Source: Bacteriovoracaceae bacterium
Lineage (GTDB): Bacteria > Bdellovibrionota > Bacteriovoracia > Bacteriovoracales > Bacteriovoracaceae
Assembly (NCBI GenBank): GCA_947441615.1
Contig: CANEUH010000002.1
Span: forward strand, 1 to 64,000
Direction: 5' to 3'
Length of the DNA: 64,000 nt
In this document: piece by piece, positions 45,387 through 51,951 of the stretch
How the letters are laid out: each line of letters opens with the position of its first letter
Position numbering within the stretch: the stretch's first letter is position 1
Position numbers and translations under genes: made by a program
The notes under the pieces: generated by a model
The model's database searches: none
Seen by the model: the letters and a program-made list of their open reading frames with translations, nothing else
Told to the model about the DNA's origin: nothing

Positions 45387-46265
45387 TTAATTACCAATCG
45401 CCTTTAATATCTTCTTCTGATGGTCCGTATCGATCTTCTTTTTTACCATCCCGAGCCAATACTCTTCGGATAGCTTTGGGATCGTTCCAATTTTAAAAAG
45501 TCGACCAGACTTAATCCAGGAACTGGCACTCTCGTCACCAAGGATCACTAATCCCTGACCTCGAACCGCAAGTTCTTTTAATAAAGCTGTATCCTGAGCT
45601 TCAATTGTAACATCAAAATGGAGCCCCTGCTCTAACATAAATTTCTCAAAGTCATGCCTAATTGGATTTTGAAAACCTGGAAGCACAAACTTCCCTCCGC
45701 CCAAGGATGAAGGAAAATTTCTTTTTAATCCAACAAACTCCTTCGCCCCACAAACAGAGACTTTCTCTTTAGAGATGAGGGAGTAAATCATCTCTTTCCC
45801 TTCCTCTAAAGGCTTAAAGTTACCTAAAAAAAGATCAATTTTCCCAGAAAGAAGTAATTCAAAAAGTTCCTCACCAGTTCCTTCAATTACTTTTACCTTA
45901 ACTGAAGGAACACTCATAACAGCTGATATCGCGAAGGCCATTATCGATTTTGGTACAGACTCCTGGGCCCCGAGCGAAATTTCCTTAACGCCGGCATCTT
46001 TAGCGTGGCCTAAATTTGAGACGAGCTCATCTTCAAGTTGCTTGATTGCACGGGCATACTTAAGGACATATTCTCCCTCTGAGGTTATGACCATCTTTTT
46101 TCCAACACGTTCAAAAAGCTTCAGATTAAGATTTTCTTCAAATTGCTTCAGTTGCGCACTAAGCGCAGGCTGACCGACAAGGAGTTTCTTTGATGCCCCA
46201 GAAATAGATCCCTCTTCAGCAATAATGAGAAAATACTTTAGGTGATGTAAATTAATCCAAGCCAC
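45387..46265 (-). CDS. LysR-family regulator, NhaR-like
   Basis: The 292-residue protein has a LysR winged helix at about 3-62 (WINLHHLKYFLIIAEEGSIS, then GQPALSAQLKQFEENL) and a substrate-binding domain at about 90-290. The WINxHHLxYF opening is shared with NhaR-type regulators of sodium response and biofilm genes. It starts with GTG preceded by GAAGG. It is divergent from the peptide-ABC-HlyD-TolC operon, with a candidate operator in between, so it probably controls that operon and itself. Confidence 0.9.
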   Translation of the reverse strand: MAWINLHHLKYFLIIAEEGSISGASKKLLVGQPALSAQLKQFEENLNLKLFERVGKKMVITSEGEYVLKYARAIKQLEDELVSNLGHAKDAGVKEISLGAQESVPKSIMAFAISAVMSVPSVKVKVIEGTGEELFELLLSGKIDLFLGNFKPLEEGKEMIYSLISKEKVSVCGAKEFVGLKRNFPSSLGGGKFVLPGFQNPIRHDFEKFMLEQGLHFDVTIEAQDTALLKELAVRGQGLVILGDESASSWIKSGRLFKIGTIPKLSEEYWLGMVKKKIDTDHQKKILKAIGN

Positions 46266-46290: not shown

Positions 46291-46321
46291 TTGTATAACT
46301 TTTATCGATTTTTATTATACA
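46291..46321 (+). promoter_or_regulatory. Divergent promoter region with LysR-type operator
   Basis: An inverted repeat TGTATAA (46292-46298) and TTATACA (46315-46321) with a 16-bp gap lies between the LysR gene and the export operon. It overlaps a candidate promoter for the operon, TTGTAT (46291-46296), 16 bp, TATTAT (46313-46318). LysR regulators bind such interrupted dyads. The match is by eye only. Confidence 0.5.
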
Positions 46322-46376
46322 TCATAGAGTGCTAGATTAGCAATATCGAGACATATTCTAATTACAGGAGTTATAA

Positions 46377-46493
46377 ATGAAGGCTATATTAATATTAACA
46401 TTGATGATGACAATGGTAATATTTTGTCATGATTCTTTTGGGAAAATCAATTTGGAACGCCCAAATGAGCCCCGTCCTACGACCATTCGTTAA
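46377..46493 (+). CDS. 38-residue exported peptide upstream of the export operon
   Basis: AGGAG lies six bases before an ATG that opens a 38-codon frame. The product has a Lys, then a hydrophobic stretch (AILILTLMMTMVIF), Cys17 and a polar tail ending RPNEPRPTTIR. It looks like a short secreted or membrane peptide; the FC junction is not a good lipobox. It is the first gene after the divergent promoter, 14 bp before the membrane-domain gene, so it could be a cargo, a subunit or a leader peptide. The length is below that of usual gene calls. Confidence 0.55.
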   Translation: MKAILILTLMMTMVIFCHDSFGKINLERPNEPRPTTIR

Positions 46494-46507
46494 TAAAAGG
46501 TAATACT

Positions 46508-47380
46508 TTGATAACAAAATCCTACGTTTCAACAATTAAAGAACTTAGAATGCCAAAAAAGTACATTTTGTATTCCGTACTTTATGGCATCACGACATTA
46601 ATCGTACCGCTCTCAGTCCAGTTTCTAGTGAATAACCTTGCTCTCTCAGGAATATGGATCAATATTTTTGGGTTTATTATTATCATCGGGGCAGGACTCA
46701 CGATCTCATTACTTTTAAGATATTCTCAAATTGTTTTAAATGAAAATTTGCAACGTGAGTTGTTTTTAAGTGAAATTTCAAAATGGAAATCTGAAATCGA
46801 AGAAAAAAACAGAACTCTTTTCATGGAAATCTTTTTTGCCATTAAGTCATTTTCAAAATCCTTTACTTCTTTAATAGAAATTTTTCTTGTTACTTTCTTT
46901 GGCATTATTGTCATGATGGCCTTTCATCCAGCATTTTTAATCCTCGCAATTATTACAGGCGCAACACTTTATCAAATAAGAGAATCCACCAAACCTGCGA
47001 TTGAATCCTCAATTGAAGAGTCGAATCAAAAATATGAACTTTTCAGACTCGCTAACACAGGTACAAATATTGGCGCAACTGAGATAGATAATTATCTAGC
47101 GAATCGCCATGAGAAGTTTAGATTCATTAGTTCTAATACTATTAAAATTTTTATTCTTTTTGTTGTAGGTCAACTTCTTTTGTTAGGAGGAGGCTCATGG
47201 CTTATCCAAATACATCAGCTCTCCATCGGACAACTTGTATCTGCAGAAATTATTTTTTCAGGAATTACTGTATCACTAAATAAGCTACCCTCTGCTCTAG
47301 AGGCTCTTTATGAGTTTGAAACAAACATGTATAAATTACTAAAAGCTAAGGGGGATGAAAATGAACAAGCCCATTTATGA
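46508..47380 (+). CDS. ABC exporter membrane domain without ATPase domain
   Basis: The product has 290 residues and starts with TTG after AAAGG. It has about six membrane helices, with the pattern of type I ABC exporter membrane domains: helix pairs near 18-72, a long cytoplasmic/periplasmic helix with ENLQRELFLSEISKWKSEIE, helices near 115-150, and the last pair near 215-260. It ends at the point where a nucleotide-binding domain would begin; no Walker A or signature motif follows, and the HlyD gene overlaps its end by 20 bp. So an ATPase must come from elsewhere, or the protein works without one. Confidence 0.8.
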   Translation: MITKSYVSTIKELRMPKKYILYSVLYGITTLIVPLSVQFLVNNLALSGIWINIFGFIIIIGAGLTISLLLRYSQIVLNENLQRELFLSEISKWKSEIEEKNRTLFMEIFFAIKSFSKSFTSLIEIFLVTFFGIIVMMAFHPAFLILAIITGATLYQIRESTKPAIESSIEESNQKYELFRLANTGTNIGATEIDNYLANRHEKFRFISSNTIKIFILFVVGQLLLLGGGSWLIQIHQLSIGQLVSAEIIFSGITVSLNKLPSALEALYEFETNMYKLLKAKGDENEQAHL

Positions 47381-48389
47381 AAGCACCCTCCCCTTGGAGA
47401 CAAATAATAAAATGGGTGTTATTTTTATCATAACACTTTTTATTATCATTCCGTTTTTACCATGGATCGCATTCACTTCAGGTGAGGGGCATGTTTCTGC
47501 CGTTGATCCTAATGAAAGAGTTCAATCAATCACTATTCCTGTTAATGGTTTTATCTCCCAGTGGCTTGTGAGTGAAGGTGATCTCGTCAAGAAAGGTCAA
47601 ACTATTGCAAAACTCCAGGATAATGATCCAGAACTGGTTCAAAGATATCAACGTGAATTAGAGGCAGCGAAGGCAGCGACTCAGTCAGCGGCACTTATGT
47701 TTGAAACATCAAAACTTAATCTTCAAAGACAAAGAAGTCTTTTTGAACAAGGTTTATCCGCAAGAAAGGAATATGAAAAAGCTAAAATTGAAAGTTCTAA
47801 GATGGAAATGGAGTATTCTAAGTCACTTGCAACACTAACGAAGGCAGAAACACAGTTTTCTAGACAATTACAAATTATAACATCTCCCCGTGATGGAGTG
47901 ATATCAAGAATTTTGCCAGGTGAAAAAGGGCAGATCATTAAGGCAGGTGCTGCGATTGCAGTACTGACACCTGAAATTACAACACATGCTGTAGAACTTT
48001 GGGTTGATGGTAATGACACGGCTTTAATTTCAAATGGTCAAGAGGCGATCATTCAATTTGAAGGATGGCCTTCAATCCAAGTGCCAGGATGGCCTTCAAT
48101 AGCAATTGGAACCTTTAAGGCGAAGGTTCACCTCGTTGATGCAGCAAGTTCATATAAAGGAAAATTTAGAGTTCTTCTAAAGCCTTTGGGAGAATGGCCA
48201 TCAAAGAAATTTTTAAGACCTGGTGCCCATGCCAAAGGAAACATTATCATGACGAAATCATTCATTATGAAGGAAGTTTGGAGGCAGCTCACTGGATTTC
48301 CAGCAATACTTGAGCCCATCGAGGATGAGTTAAACAAATTAATGAAACAAAAATATAATAATGATAGCGAAGGTGAAAATTCAAAATGA
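47361..48389 (+). CDS. HlyD-type membrane fusion protein
   Basis: The start at 47361 is chosen because the GGGGG ribosome site leaves no room for an ATG at 47355. The 342-residue protein has an N-terminal membrane helix (MGVIFIITLFIIIPFLPWI). A lipoyl-type half-motif follows, VNGFISQWLVSEGDLVKKGQ, then a coiled hairpin at about 95-170, then SPRDGVISRILPGEKGQIIKAGAAIAVL and a beta-barrel domain with a repeated GWPSI pair. It should bridge the inner-membrane part and the TolC-like channel. Confidence 0.88.
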   Translation: MNKPIYESTLPLETNNKMGVIFIITLFIIIPFLPWIAFTSGEGHVSAVDPNERVQSITIPVNGFISQWLVSEGDLVKKGQTIAKLQDNDPELVQRYQRELEAAKAATQSAALMFETSKLNLQRQRSLFEQGLSARKEYEKAKIESSKMEMEYSKSLATLTKAETQFSRQLQIITSPRDGVISRILPGEKGQIIKAGAAIAVLTPEITTHAVELWVDGNDTALISNGQEAIIQFEGWPSIQVPGWPSIAIGTFKAKVHLVDAASSYKGKFRVLLKPLGEWPSKKFLRPGAHAKGNIIMTKSFIMKEVWRQLTGFPAILEPIEDELNKLMKQKYNNDSEGENSK

Positions 48390-49735
48390 TACACATCATC
48401 CTCGTAGCCATTTTTCATTTCAGCGCCCAAGCTATTTCTGAGCATGAAGTTATTAAATCAGTCATTGATCATTTTCCACTCATCGAGGAAGCTGAACTAA
48501 AATACAAGTCAGCTCAAGAGGATGTAATTACGAGCGAAGGCGCCTTCGATCACAAGTTCACCTTTAAGTCTAGAAACCGAATTGAAGATAAGTATGACAA
48601 TCAATATTTTGAAACAAGTATAGAGAGACAAACCTCATTAGGTGGGTTGGGACTCATCGCTGGACATAGGCAAGGTAGAGGAAAATTCCCCTACTATGAT
48701 GGTAAATATGTTACTTCGGGTGCCGGTGAAATATTTGCGGGACTAACAATGCCTCTTTTGAGGGATTTTAAAACTGATGAATTTAGAACGGAATTACAAA
48801 TTTCAAACTTTAAATCGAAGGCGCAAAAAGCAGAATTAGACATAAAATTAAATGTCTATATTCATAAAGCATTATCTCTTTATTATAAATATCTCTTTAA
48901 TAATCAAAAAATTAAAATTAGAAAAGATATTCTAGAAATCGCTGAAAAAAGACAGGAGATGCTTGAGAAAAAATTTAAGGCTGGAGATATAGAAAAACTT
49001 AAAATCATTGATAACCAAAGATCAGTCGATAAAAGAAAAGATGAACTTCTTAAGGCCGAAATTGAATGGATCGATTCAAAAACACAATTAGATCTTTATC
49101 TTAAAGACTCTACGGGGAACCAAATTTCATTAACGAAGGATCTTCTTCCGGTTGATGATATAAAACCTGTGAATAAAGAAATTATAAATCTCAATAATTT
49201 GCCTCAAGTTTCACTCATCGATCAGGAAATTAAAGTCATCAATGCAAAGAAAGAACTTTATGAACAATCAAAACTACCAGGTTTAAAAGTTGAAGTACTT
49301 GGCTCAAGAGAACTCTCTGGCAATCGACCTTATGACCAAGAAGCCCTACAAGTTGGTCTTAAATTTGATATTCCTTTTGAAAACAGAAAGGCAAAAGGAG
49401 CTTCTCTTTCAAGCGAGTACAAATTTTTGGCGCTAAAAAAACAAAGAGACTATCTAGAACAAAACTTATTTCAACAATACACTTTCTCCCATGAGGGAAC
49501 AAAACTCAGTCAAATAAGATGGCAAGTCGTTTCAAATGAATATCAAGAAACACTAAAACTTTCTCAGGCCGAAAAGACTAAATGGGAGCAAGGAGCATCA
49601 GATTTATATATTGTGAACTTAAGAGAGCAAGATACTGCTGATGCAGAAATAAAAAAATGGAATGTCTGGTATGAATACCATCAGTTTCATATCGATAGTC
49701 GTTTATTTTCAGGCACTATAAAAGAAAGTTATTAA
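48386..49735 (+). CDS. TolC-family outer-membrane channel protein
   Basis: The 449-residue protein has a signal peptide and the outer-membrane efflux protein layout: long coiled helices (IRKDILEIAEKRQEMLEKKFKAG, then KAEIEWIDSKTQLDLYL), a strand pair with FETSIERQTSLGGLG, and a second half from about 250. Its ATG overlaps the hlyD stop (ATGA). It completes a tripartite envelope-spanning export path with the two genes upstream. Confidence 0.87.
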   Translation: MIHIILVAIFHFSAQAISEHEVIKSVIDHFPLIEEAELKYKSAQEDVITSEGAFDHKFTFKSRNRIEDKYDNQYFETSIERQTSLGGLGLIAGHRQGRGKFPYYDGKYVTSGAGEIFAGLTMPLLRDFKTDEFRTELQISNFKSKAQKAELDIKLNVYIHKALSLYYKYLFNNQKIKIRKDILEIAEKRQEMLEKKFKAGDIEKLKIIDNQRSVDKRKDELLKAEIEWIDSKTQLDLYLKDSTGNQISLTKDLLPVDDIKPVNKEIINLNNLPQVSLIDQEIKVINAKKELYEQSKLPGLKVEVLGSRELSGNRPYDQEALQVGLKFDIPFENRKAKGASLSSEYKFLALKKQRDYLEQNLFQQYTFSHEGTKLSQIRWQVVSNEYQETLKLSQAEKTKWEQGASDLYIVNLREQDTADAEIKKWNVWYEYHQFHIDSRLFSGTIKESY

Positions 49736-50052
49736 ATGCAGCTTCTATCAGACCTGATATCTTGATCTACATCTATACAGTGAAAATGCCCCTTCCGTAG
49801 ACTAGACCTTATTCTCACCTGCAAACCTTCGCATTCCTCTGGGTCTAGGAGATAGTTGATAGCCTGCTCAAACTCACCAATTCTTAGTCCTTGAATAAAA
49901 CTCTGGCAATCAATCACTACTTTGTTTGGAATATTGGTTTTAAGCACAAAGCTTCTTTCTAGAGGACCATCTTTAGTCATCCTGCTGACCCGGATTTCAT
50001 CTGCCGTTGCAGTAAAGGCAGTCAAGACGAGTAGTACTAAAAGTGATTTCAT
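49732..50052 (-). CDS. Small exported Cys-containing protein, unknown
   Basis: The 106-residue product has a signal peptide (MKSLLVLLVLTAFTATA). Five cysteines follow (IDCQSF, PEECEG, FHCIDV, RSCI), so disulfides are likely. Its 3' end overlaps the TolC gene end by 4 bp, tail to tail. No family is recognised. Confidence 0.6.
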   Translation of the reverse strand: MKSLLVLLVLTAFTATADEIRVSRMTKDGPLERSFVLKTNIPNKVVIDCQSFIQGLRIGEFEQAINYLLDPEECEGLQVRIRSSLRKGHFHCIDVDQDIRSDRSCI

Positions 50053-50236
50053 ATGTTCTCCGATTAAGTGACTTATCGGAGAGAGAAGAGTTTAGTGGAG
50101 AAGGATCCTGACTAATTTAATTTCGTGGGCATTTTATTCCCTTTATGACAAACAATGCCTAATAAGATGATACATATCATGAGTCTTAATGAGGATTTAA
50201 ATACCAAAGCCACTTCCCAAAGAATACTCTAAGTAC

Positions 50237-50824
50237 ATGAAAAAGCTTATTCTTTTATGCTTTTATCTTCTTATTATCATCACAAATAGCTACGGATTTG
50301 ATGAACGATTTAGCGCCTTCATACGAATTGAAAAAACGGCACATTCATTAAAAATTAGACCCAATGGAGAAGGTTCATCAATTCCTGCTGTTGGATATAC
50401 TAAAGAAGTTTCAAAAAAAATATCAAAACTTGAGGATGGATCAGAAGCCGTAATAGAAGGTTTTATTCGATACACTTATCTTAAAACGGAAGGAACTCAC
50501 CATTCACAACCAATCATTATGATCCAAGATATACATCCAGTTTCTTTAAAAGAACTTGGTGTTGGCCCTGAATCAATGATTGCAGATCAGCTACCGCTTA
50601 GATCCACAAAAAATGAATATATTCCTCCATCAATACCAATTACAACAGAGGTCGCCTCGGCAATGACTCTTACAACGAGTCTACTTCTCATGAACGAACT
50701 AACTTCCGCGAATACTTCGTATAGCCTAGATAAGGATTTGAGAACGACACTTTTTCTTTCAACTGGGTTAGTGGCAACCATCGTTTTAATATACGACCAA
50801 ATTCAAGGGAAAAATAAACCATGA
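50237..50824 (+). CDS. Exported protein with C-terminal membrane helices, unknown
   Basis: The 195-residue product has a signal peptide (MKKLILLCFYLLIIITNSYG). A soluble domain of about 110 residues follows, with strands such as AVIEGFIRYTYLKTEG and QPIIMIQDIHPVSL. One or two membrane helices near 140-185 (TTEVASAMTLTTSLLLM, LFLSTGLVATIVLIYDQ) come last. Its stop overlaps the next start (ATGA). It is adjacent to the export operon and may belong to the same function, but this is positional evidence. Confidence 0.65.
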   Translation: MKKLILLCFYLLIIITNSYGFDERFSAFIRIEKTAHSLKIRPNGEGSSIPAVGYTKEVSKKISKLEDGSEAVIEGFIRYTYLKTEGTHHSQPIIMIQDIHPVSLKELGVGPESMIADQLPLRSTKNEYIPPSIPITTEVASAMTLTTSLLLMNELTSANTSYSLDKDLRTTLFLSTGLVATIVLIYDQIQGKNKP

Positions 50825-51951
50825 AATACTTTTTAATTTGGGCAATATTCTCCTCGATAAATGCTTTTGCAACTCCCCTACTTCAAATGAATAAGGCTTT
50901 TCATTCTATAACTGAACTAGGTCCATATCTGAGAAATGAAGAAGAATTTCAAAACAAAAAGAATCGAAAAATAATTCAAAAAAATTTAAAAGAACTTGAT
51001 TCAGCATTTCAAGTTGCTGGGCACGATCATTTAATCAAGCATGATCTCTTTGCCCCTTCTTATGAACTCCTCTCTTCCAACATAAAAGAAAGTTCTCTCT
51101 CATTTGAAAAAGACAAAAAAGATTATTCATTCTGGATATTAAAAGAAACACTAACACTTTGTATGGACTGCCACACAAGACTTCCAATGAGCGTCACATC
51201 TAGCTTCCAAAACGGAGAATTAACGATTGATCCTAATAAAATTAAAGATCCCTATGATCTAGGTGTTGCCTACCTCATAGTAAGAAGATTTATCGATGCA
51301 AAAGATAACTTCACGAGGAGTATTCAGGACCGGATTATAAAAAAAGAAACAGGAAGACTCCTCTTACCATTTCAACAAATCCTAATGATTGAAGTAAAAG
51401 TCAAAAAAGATCCAACTTCGATGATTTCAATTATAAATGATTATCTTTCAAAAAAACATCTGCCACCAACAGTGGAAAACGAATTAAAACTTTGGAAAAC
51501 GAGGCTTGAAATTTGGCAGAAAGAAAAGGCAATTACAAATCAAATTGAAAATGAACAAGAGCTAAAGAAATTTATAAAAAGAAGACTTGAACCATTAAAA
51601 GAAGAAGATTCATTTAATGATTCTCTAAAAGTTGATCTATTGTTTGGCACCGGAATCATTTCTCAATACTTTTTTGAAAATCAAAATTCTCCCTCAGCTC
51701 CAGAAATAAGCTATTGGATGGGTTGGATGGAAAAAAGACTTAAAAAAGAAAACTTTTTAAGTACCGGAAATCTCTATTTCAAGCAATGTATCAAAAAATA
51801 CCCTCAAACTCCAATCGCTAAGGAATGCTTAAAGGAATACACAGAGAGTGTTGAGTTTGACTTCTCAGGCTCTGGAGGAATGGCGATTCCAAGTGAAATA
51901 AAAAAAGAACTAAAGGATTTAAGTGACTTACTTGAGGAAAAAAAGAAATGA
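50821..51951 (+). CDS. Exported helical protein with one CxxCH haem-binding motif
   Basis: The 376-residue product has a signal peptide ending AFAT. A helical domain has the haem attachment motif CMDCH (114-118). Helical repeats follow that could be TPR-like (DLGVAYLIVRRFIDAKDNFTRSIQ, ISYWMGWMEKRLKKENFLSTGNLYF). A single haem per chain would be bound covalently in the periplasm. The distal Met is not obvious, so electron transfer or sensing is possible. It is coupled to the upstream gene by ATGA. Confidence 0.7.
   Translation: MKYFLIWAIFSSINAFATPLLQMNKAFHSITELGPYLRNEEEFQNKKNRKIIQKNLKELDSAFQVAGHDHLIKHDLFAPSYELLSSNIKESSLSFEKDKKDYSFWILKETLTLCMDCHTRLPMSVTSSFQNGELTIDPNKIKDPYDLGVAYLIVRRFIDAKDNFTRSIQDRIIKKETGRLLLPFQQILMIEVKVKKDPTSMISIINDYLSKKHLPPTVENELKLWKTRLEIWQKEKAITNQIENEQELKKFIKRRLEPLKEEDSFNDSLKVDLLFGTGIISQYFFENQNSPSAPEISYWMGWMEKRLKKENFLSTGNLYFKQCIKKYPQTPIAKECLKEYTESVEFDFSGSGGMAIPSEIKKELKDLSDLLEEKKK

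Follow-up and report, generated by a model that had tools for sequence, protein, structure and literature searches.

In textbook accounts an ATPase is the defining part of an ATP-binding cassette (ABC) exporter. This nucleotide-binding domain (NBD) holds on to two coupling helices, one at the tip of intracellular loop 1 and one at that of loop 2. The energised inner-membrane components of tripartite export machines have been reviewed as ABC, RND and MFS pumps (PMC8277102). ABC-type membrane domains without an NBD are already known. SbmA/BacA (SLiPT) proteins are proton-driven relatives of ABC membrane domains, and their ancestor is thought to have been a full-length ABC protein (PMC13316013); NBD-truncated LmrA (LmrA-MD) was reported as an ion-coupled secondary multidrug translocator that needs E314 in transmembrane helix (TM) 6, a residue facing TM3 (PMC6155054). 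The subject of this report is an operon in a 64-kb stretch of DNA from a Bacteriovoracaceae bacterium (contig CANEUH010000002.1, positions 1 to 64,000; hereafter the window), in which the gene of a membrane domain (TMD) of this kind is followed by a HlyD and a TolC gene. The operon core occupies positions 46508-49735 of the plus strand, and the three genes overlap consecutively. With moderate confidence we read this operon as an ion-driven (proton or sodium), LysR-controlled tripartite efflux pump that derives from a type IV ABC exporter and has no ATPase.

The HlyB-HlyD-TolC, PrtD and PCAT systems resemble the locus in the type IV ABC membrane fold and in the HlyD adaptor and TolC-type factor encoded in one operon. 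Compared with them the window system has no NBD, no coupling helices and no C39 domain, is linked to a LysR gene, and has no identified secreted protein substrate. SbmA, to our knowledge, has no HlyD or TolC partners. It is an import system that has TM0 as an additional domain (PMC13316013), whereas the window TMD comprises only 290 amino acids without TM0, and no window protein matched the SbmA_BacA family in Pfam or NCBIfam. LmrA-MD is a laboratory truncation without tripartite partners, whereas NBD and coupling loops were removed naturally from the window TMD. No description of NBD-less or NBD-dead ABC-HlyD-TolC systems was found in the open-access literature, subscription papers being outside this search. 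The kinds of component are already known, as are NBD-less ABC membrane domains from SbmA and the laboratory construct; no earlier report turned up in the open-access searches for the NBD-less export form linked to HlyD and TolC or for the widespread decay of the NBD in its family.

A membrane domain without its ATPase

The TMD gene (46508..47380, plus strand) begins with a TTG start codon. Its product alone gave no match above cut-off in Pfam or NCBIfam. A profile built from its relatives matched HlyB (E 1e-13), ComA, BmrA and PCAT1 along the full length of the membrane domain, and HlyB was the best PDB profile match. The AlphaFold2 monomer model (pLDDT 91, pTM 0.86) showed a short N-terminal helix followed by six long ones, and a Foldseek search of the PDB with this model returned TmrAB, PrtD, HlyB and PCAT1. 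By profile and predicted structure, the gene product was confirmed as the six-helix membrane domain of a type IV ABC exporter without an NBD. Its end coincides with the point at which NBD-bearing relatives continue into the NBD linker, in agreement with an earlier note on this DNA, which had proposed that the gene ends where the ATPase domain should start. An NBD with Walker A, signature, Walker B and H-loop is absent from the TMD gene, from the operon and, as the same note had stated, from the whole window; the only PF00005 match of the contig lies at 79 kb.

The next gene (47355..48389, plus strand) overlaps the end of the TMD gene by 26 bases and encodes a HlyD-type periplasmic adaptor of 344 amino acids with HlyD_3 and HlyD_D23 matches and an FEGWP...GWP motif. 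It is overlapped by the gene of a TolC-type outer-membrane factor of 449 amino acids (48386..49735, plus strand; PF02321, E 2.7e-20). Coordinates and Pfam matches bear out the overlapping order given earlier.

The draft genome that contains the window consists of 40 contigs, and the missing NBD might in principle reflect an error of annotation, a frameshift, misassembly or the decay of the gene. The chance of this is negligible, as the same gene length and order recur in many independent genomes. The order NBD-less TMD, HlyD, TolC was present in about 20 genomes of the same genus and about 27 of the phylum (369 phylum genomes searched), with TMD orthologues of about 280-320 amino acids in about 27 genomes. 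This recurrence rules out the loss of an NBD gene by assembly error, and the earlier statement that the gene is not a simple frameshift holds. The coupling loops, shortened in step with the missing NBD (see below), likewise speak against an artefact. An NBD gene does not normally adjoin the operon in close relatives; in distant relatives the NBD is fused to the TMD and usually dead. The dN/dS ratios of the neighbouring genes are also near 0.02 (HlyD 0.019, TolC 0.027, two close genomes compared), the TMD gene having a dN of 0.055 with dS saturated. Many TMD positions were invariant, and the operon is under strong purifying selection. One instance of the NBD-less operon stands at a contig end (L079 / G268:C4) of a metagenome-assembled genome labelled Bdellovibrionaceae, while its sequence groups with the genus of the window; horizontal transfer and mis-binning are alternative explanations of this placement.

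The intracellular loops were shortened together with the loss of the NBD. Every one of the 56 NBD-bearing proteins, including those with dead NBDs, had a loop 1 of 40 residues, compared with 27-35 residues in all 30 NBD-less proteins. The corresponding lengths of loop 2 were 39-41 residues (56/56, dead NBDs again included) and 22-37 residues (30/30); among these 30, L193 runs into a contig end, and only its shortened loops are certain. Three transmembrane spacings were the same in both groups. In the window TMD the shortened loop 1 (residues 79-107; 46742..46828, plus strand) lacks coupling helix 1 and the shortened loop 2 (residues 175-200; 47030..47107, plus strand) lacks coupling helix 2. 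In the model TM2 and TM3 as well as TM4 and TM5 are linked by short turns, helix 161-183 being joined to helix 190-234 at loop 2. The model of a full-length relative (L087; pLDDT 80, lower confidence) kept short helices at 115-121 and 215-218. An arginine that 98% of the NBD-bearing proteins have next to coupling helix 1 is gone from the NBD-less clade. Since the NBD and both coupling loops are gone, ATP drive via an NBD is hardly possible.

The earlier note had suggested that an ATPase might be shared in trans. Some YddA-type ABC transporters indeed have TMD and NBD in separate genes or operons (PMC13316013), and the genome of the window contains 37 PF00005 matches, of which one lies on the contig of the window and none in the window. 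Thirty of the 37 matches were retrieved, and among the lone NBDs those closest to the NBD of the family were identified. No orphan exporter-type NBD was present among the matches examined, nor was a candidate for an NBD acting in trans. The lone NBDs examined belong to other systems, being LolD/MacB-, Lpt-, Mla-, Pst- or ABC-F-like, and MacB/FtsX permeases lie beside those that are most exporter-like. Because the coupling loops are shortened and no orphan exporter-type NBD was found, supply of the ATPase in trans is unlikely, and we give an ATPase from another operon only a small chance of driving this TMD. That the loops kept their exact length even around dead NBDs, while both are short in every NBD-less protein, and that the conserved arginine was lost, strongly disfavours the suggestion as well.

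Decay and loss of the NBD in the wider family

The HlyD protein is a member of a large family with the FEGWP...GWP motif, of which more than 580 encoded relatives were present in the genome collection; no relative was found in phages. The operon order in this family is nearly always ABC-HlyD-TolC. The NBD-bearing relatives span Bdellovibrionota, sphingomonads, Legionella, Francisella, Bacteroidota and Acidobacteriota, and in most operons the ABC protein has about 510-600 residues and a decayed NBD. None of the four catalytic motifs was present in 55 of the 69 NBD-bearing relatives nearest to the HlyD protein of the window, and all four in only 2, a share of dead NBDs that may be lower further out. 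Walker A was kept in 13 of these proteins, the DE of Walker B in 5, the signature in 6 and the H-loop histidine in 2, the last count depending on the alignment. Two proteins from Bacteroidota also had defective NBDs, as did the homologue SARO_RS19820 of Novosphingobium aromaticivorans DSM 12444. Some sphingomonad and Bacteroidota genes that carry the annotation 'ABC transporter ATP-binding protein' may not encode working ATPases. Defective-NBD homologues at L231-L233 and in the plasmid matches H1-H15 carry this label in public records.

A paralogous ABC-HlyD-TolC operon is present in the window's own genome (G000:C1:95543-98240; L066 6117-10343) and is shared by several genomes of the genus. 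Its ABC protein has 583 amino acids and a conserved yet catalytically dead NBD, in which VKSFSSI occupies the Walker A position and VTPDFEQ that of Walker B. The TMD of the window could pair with a full-length ABC exporter such as this paralogue (G000:C1:97341) and contribute the half without an NBD to a heterodimer. Heterodimeric exporters in which one site is degenerate are known (TmrAB, discussed in PMC8277102), and the full-length paralogue is present in many of the same genomes. The NBD of the paralogue, however, has no Walker A, Walker B or H-loop residues and falls below the PF00005 cut-off, the paralogue has its own HlyD and TolC, and the draft genomes G002, G005 and G016 carry the NBD-less operon without a match to the paralogue. 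We consider the heterodimer very improbable.

Outside the clade of the window the NBD is absent from two further Bdellovibrionota loci (L085 and L189). Two Spirochaetota loci (L136 585-2831 and L137 112-2349) encode a polypeptide of about 745 amino acids in which the TMD is joined directly to HlyD without an NBD, followed by TolC. Another fusion of TMD to HlyD without an NBD was found at L192 6187-7739 (G326), where the HlyD frame is broken soon past the junction. On the tree of HlyD and TolC the absence of the NBD requires at least three changes, two of which are forced by well-supported branches, and the grouping of the Spirochaete fusion with the clade of the window was rejected only at p=0.046. 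The tree of the TMD alone suggested four losses. The NBD was probably lost more than once.

Membrane carboxylates and energy source

Three acidic residues are candidates for ion coupling in the window TMD. E124 in TM3 (codon 46877..46879, plus strand) is acidic in 96% of the NBD-less clade and in 9% of the NBD-bearing relatives. E247 in TM6 (codon 47246..47248, plus strand) is invariant (100%) in the NBD-less clade and present in 86% of the NBD-bearing proteins, and E265 in TM6 (codon 47300..47302, plus strand) is acidic in 100% of the clade. In live relatives 71-81 residues (mostly 76) separate the equivalent of E265 from the Walker lysine, and in LmrA the distance from E314 to K388 is 74. 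By this residue count, a lead and not an alignment, E265 would lie at about the depth of LmrA E314.

We infer ion coupling, a small-molecule substrate and the direction of transport, and the pump might work as follows. A dimer of the TMD (290 amino acids each) would form the inner-membrane gate and the substrate cavity, and the HlyD protein would connect this dimer to the TolC-like duct. The LysR protein would sense a small molecule and switch the operon on, this molecule being the export substrate. A proton or sodium gradient would drive alternating access via E124, E247 and E265, as in SbmA and truncated LmrA.

The main rival is that the TMD is a passive gate, a facilitated-diffusion channel or an assembly platform that anchors HlyD and TolC. 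Decay of the NBD in many lineages with loops kept around the dead domains fits a structural role, and direct fusions of TMD to HlyD exist. The NBD-less clade, on the other hand, has and keeps an acidic residue in TM3 without counterpart in the relatives and keeps the acids of TM6, and the strong purifying selection on the operon and the many invariant TMD positions also speak against a mere gate or scaffold. We regard the passive role as a real but minor possibility, less probable than ion drive. The earlier note had named a passive or proton-driven membrane domain as the other option besides a shared ATPase; this option is now the favoured one, although it is not proven.

Several points weigh against the ion-driven reading. 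The pattern of carboxylates is only correlative, and E247 and E265 are common in NBD-bearing relatives too. E124 was assigned to the membrane from the helix boundaries of a monomer model, and ion-driven transport by LmrA has not been shown to be general. The energy source of the TMD, and with it the ion-driven pump, is a matter of inference and not of transport measurement, and a tripartite channel without an active pump is possible. Approximately unbiased tests on the tree of the TMD alone did not reject a single loss of the NBD with the NBD-less groups joined (p 0.58 and 0.48).

The wider reading is more tentative, at a little less than an even chance. It holds that this family of ABC exporters left ATP hydrolysis, first with dead NBDs and then by deletion of NBD and loops or by fusion of TMD and HlyD in several lineages, and that its members now export through HlyD and TolC as ion-driven secondary transporters. 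Such a tripartite export machine would belong to a new energy class. If ion drive is correct, a member of a well-known class of ATP-driven pumps has changed its source of energy, most likely to an ion gradient. The family contains within one kind of operon a natural and widely conserved series from live over dead to absent NBD, and the coupling loops are shorter in every case in which the NBD is missing. These proteins are natural material for testing the much-debated idea of ion-driven ABC membrane domains (LmrA, MsbA, SbmA), for export and not import.

Regulator, small peptide and neighbouring genes

The gene of the LysR-type regulator (45387..46265, minus strand; PF00126 and PF03466) is divergent from the operon. 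The divergent promoter region contains a LysR-type box, TAT-N11-ATA (46303..46319), which also occurs at L037, L038, L039, L040 and L041 and is kept in four relatives, and the divergent LysR gene with a dyad that the earlier note had described is thereby supported. A LysR gene 63-89% identical to that of the window adjoins the operon in seven genomes of the genus. In about 24 loci of several phyla a LysR gene preceded the TMD gene at a distance of no more than about 460 bp, and an upstream LysR gene is frequent in loci of the HlyD family from Bdellovibrionota, sphingomonads, Legionella, Acidobacteriota and Planctomycetota. The NBD-less clade has no recurrent cargo gene, and no neighbour except LysR recurs clearly across phyla.

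AaeXAB-AaeR combines a divergent LysR gene, a small peptide and a HlyD-type adaptor with AaeB, a FUSC protein. This system and other FUSC pumps resemble the window locus in the first three features; the fold of the membrane protein differs. An identity of the TMD protein with FUSC/AaeB proteins, suggested by the gene order, was ruled out, as it gave no FUSC match in Pfam and has the ABC type IV fold.

The gene of an exported, lipoprotein-like peptide of 38 amino acids (46377..46493, plus strand) precedes the TMD gene. The peptide predicted earlier is real: its frame, position and Cys17 are the same in G008, G006 and G012; a similar peptide of 39 amino acids occurs at L047. It was not found at L039 nor in most other relatives. 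As it is conserved in only few relatives, the peptide is accessory at most. Tiny exported or lipoprotein-like peptides of 38-39 amino acids with a cysteine at position 16-17 were seen upstream of the TMD gene in the window and at L038, L040, L041 and L047.

Two genes of exported proteins, one with a haem motif, do lie downstream at 50237-51951 as reported before. They are outside the transcription unit and the core system, being separated from the operon by a gene on the opposite strand (49732-50052), and they are not kept beside the operon in several relatives. The conservation of the neighbourhood extends to the order TMD-HlyD-TolC and to the recurring LysR gene, but not to the haem-motif gene, which is missing beside the operon in some relatives. 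The separating gene converges on the operon and encodes an exported protein of 106 amino acids; it gave no family match, and it is conserved next to tolC in several relatives.

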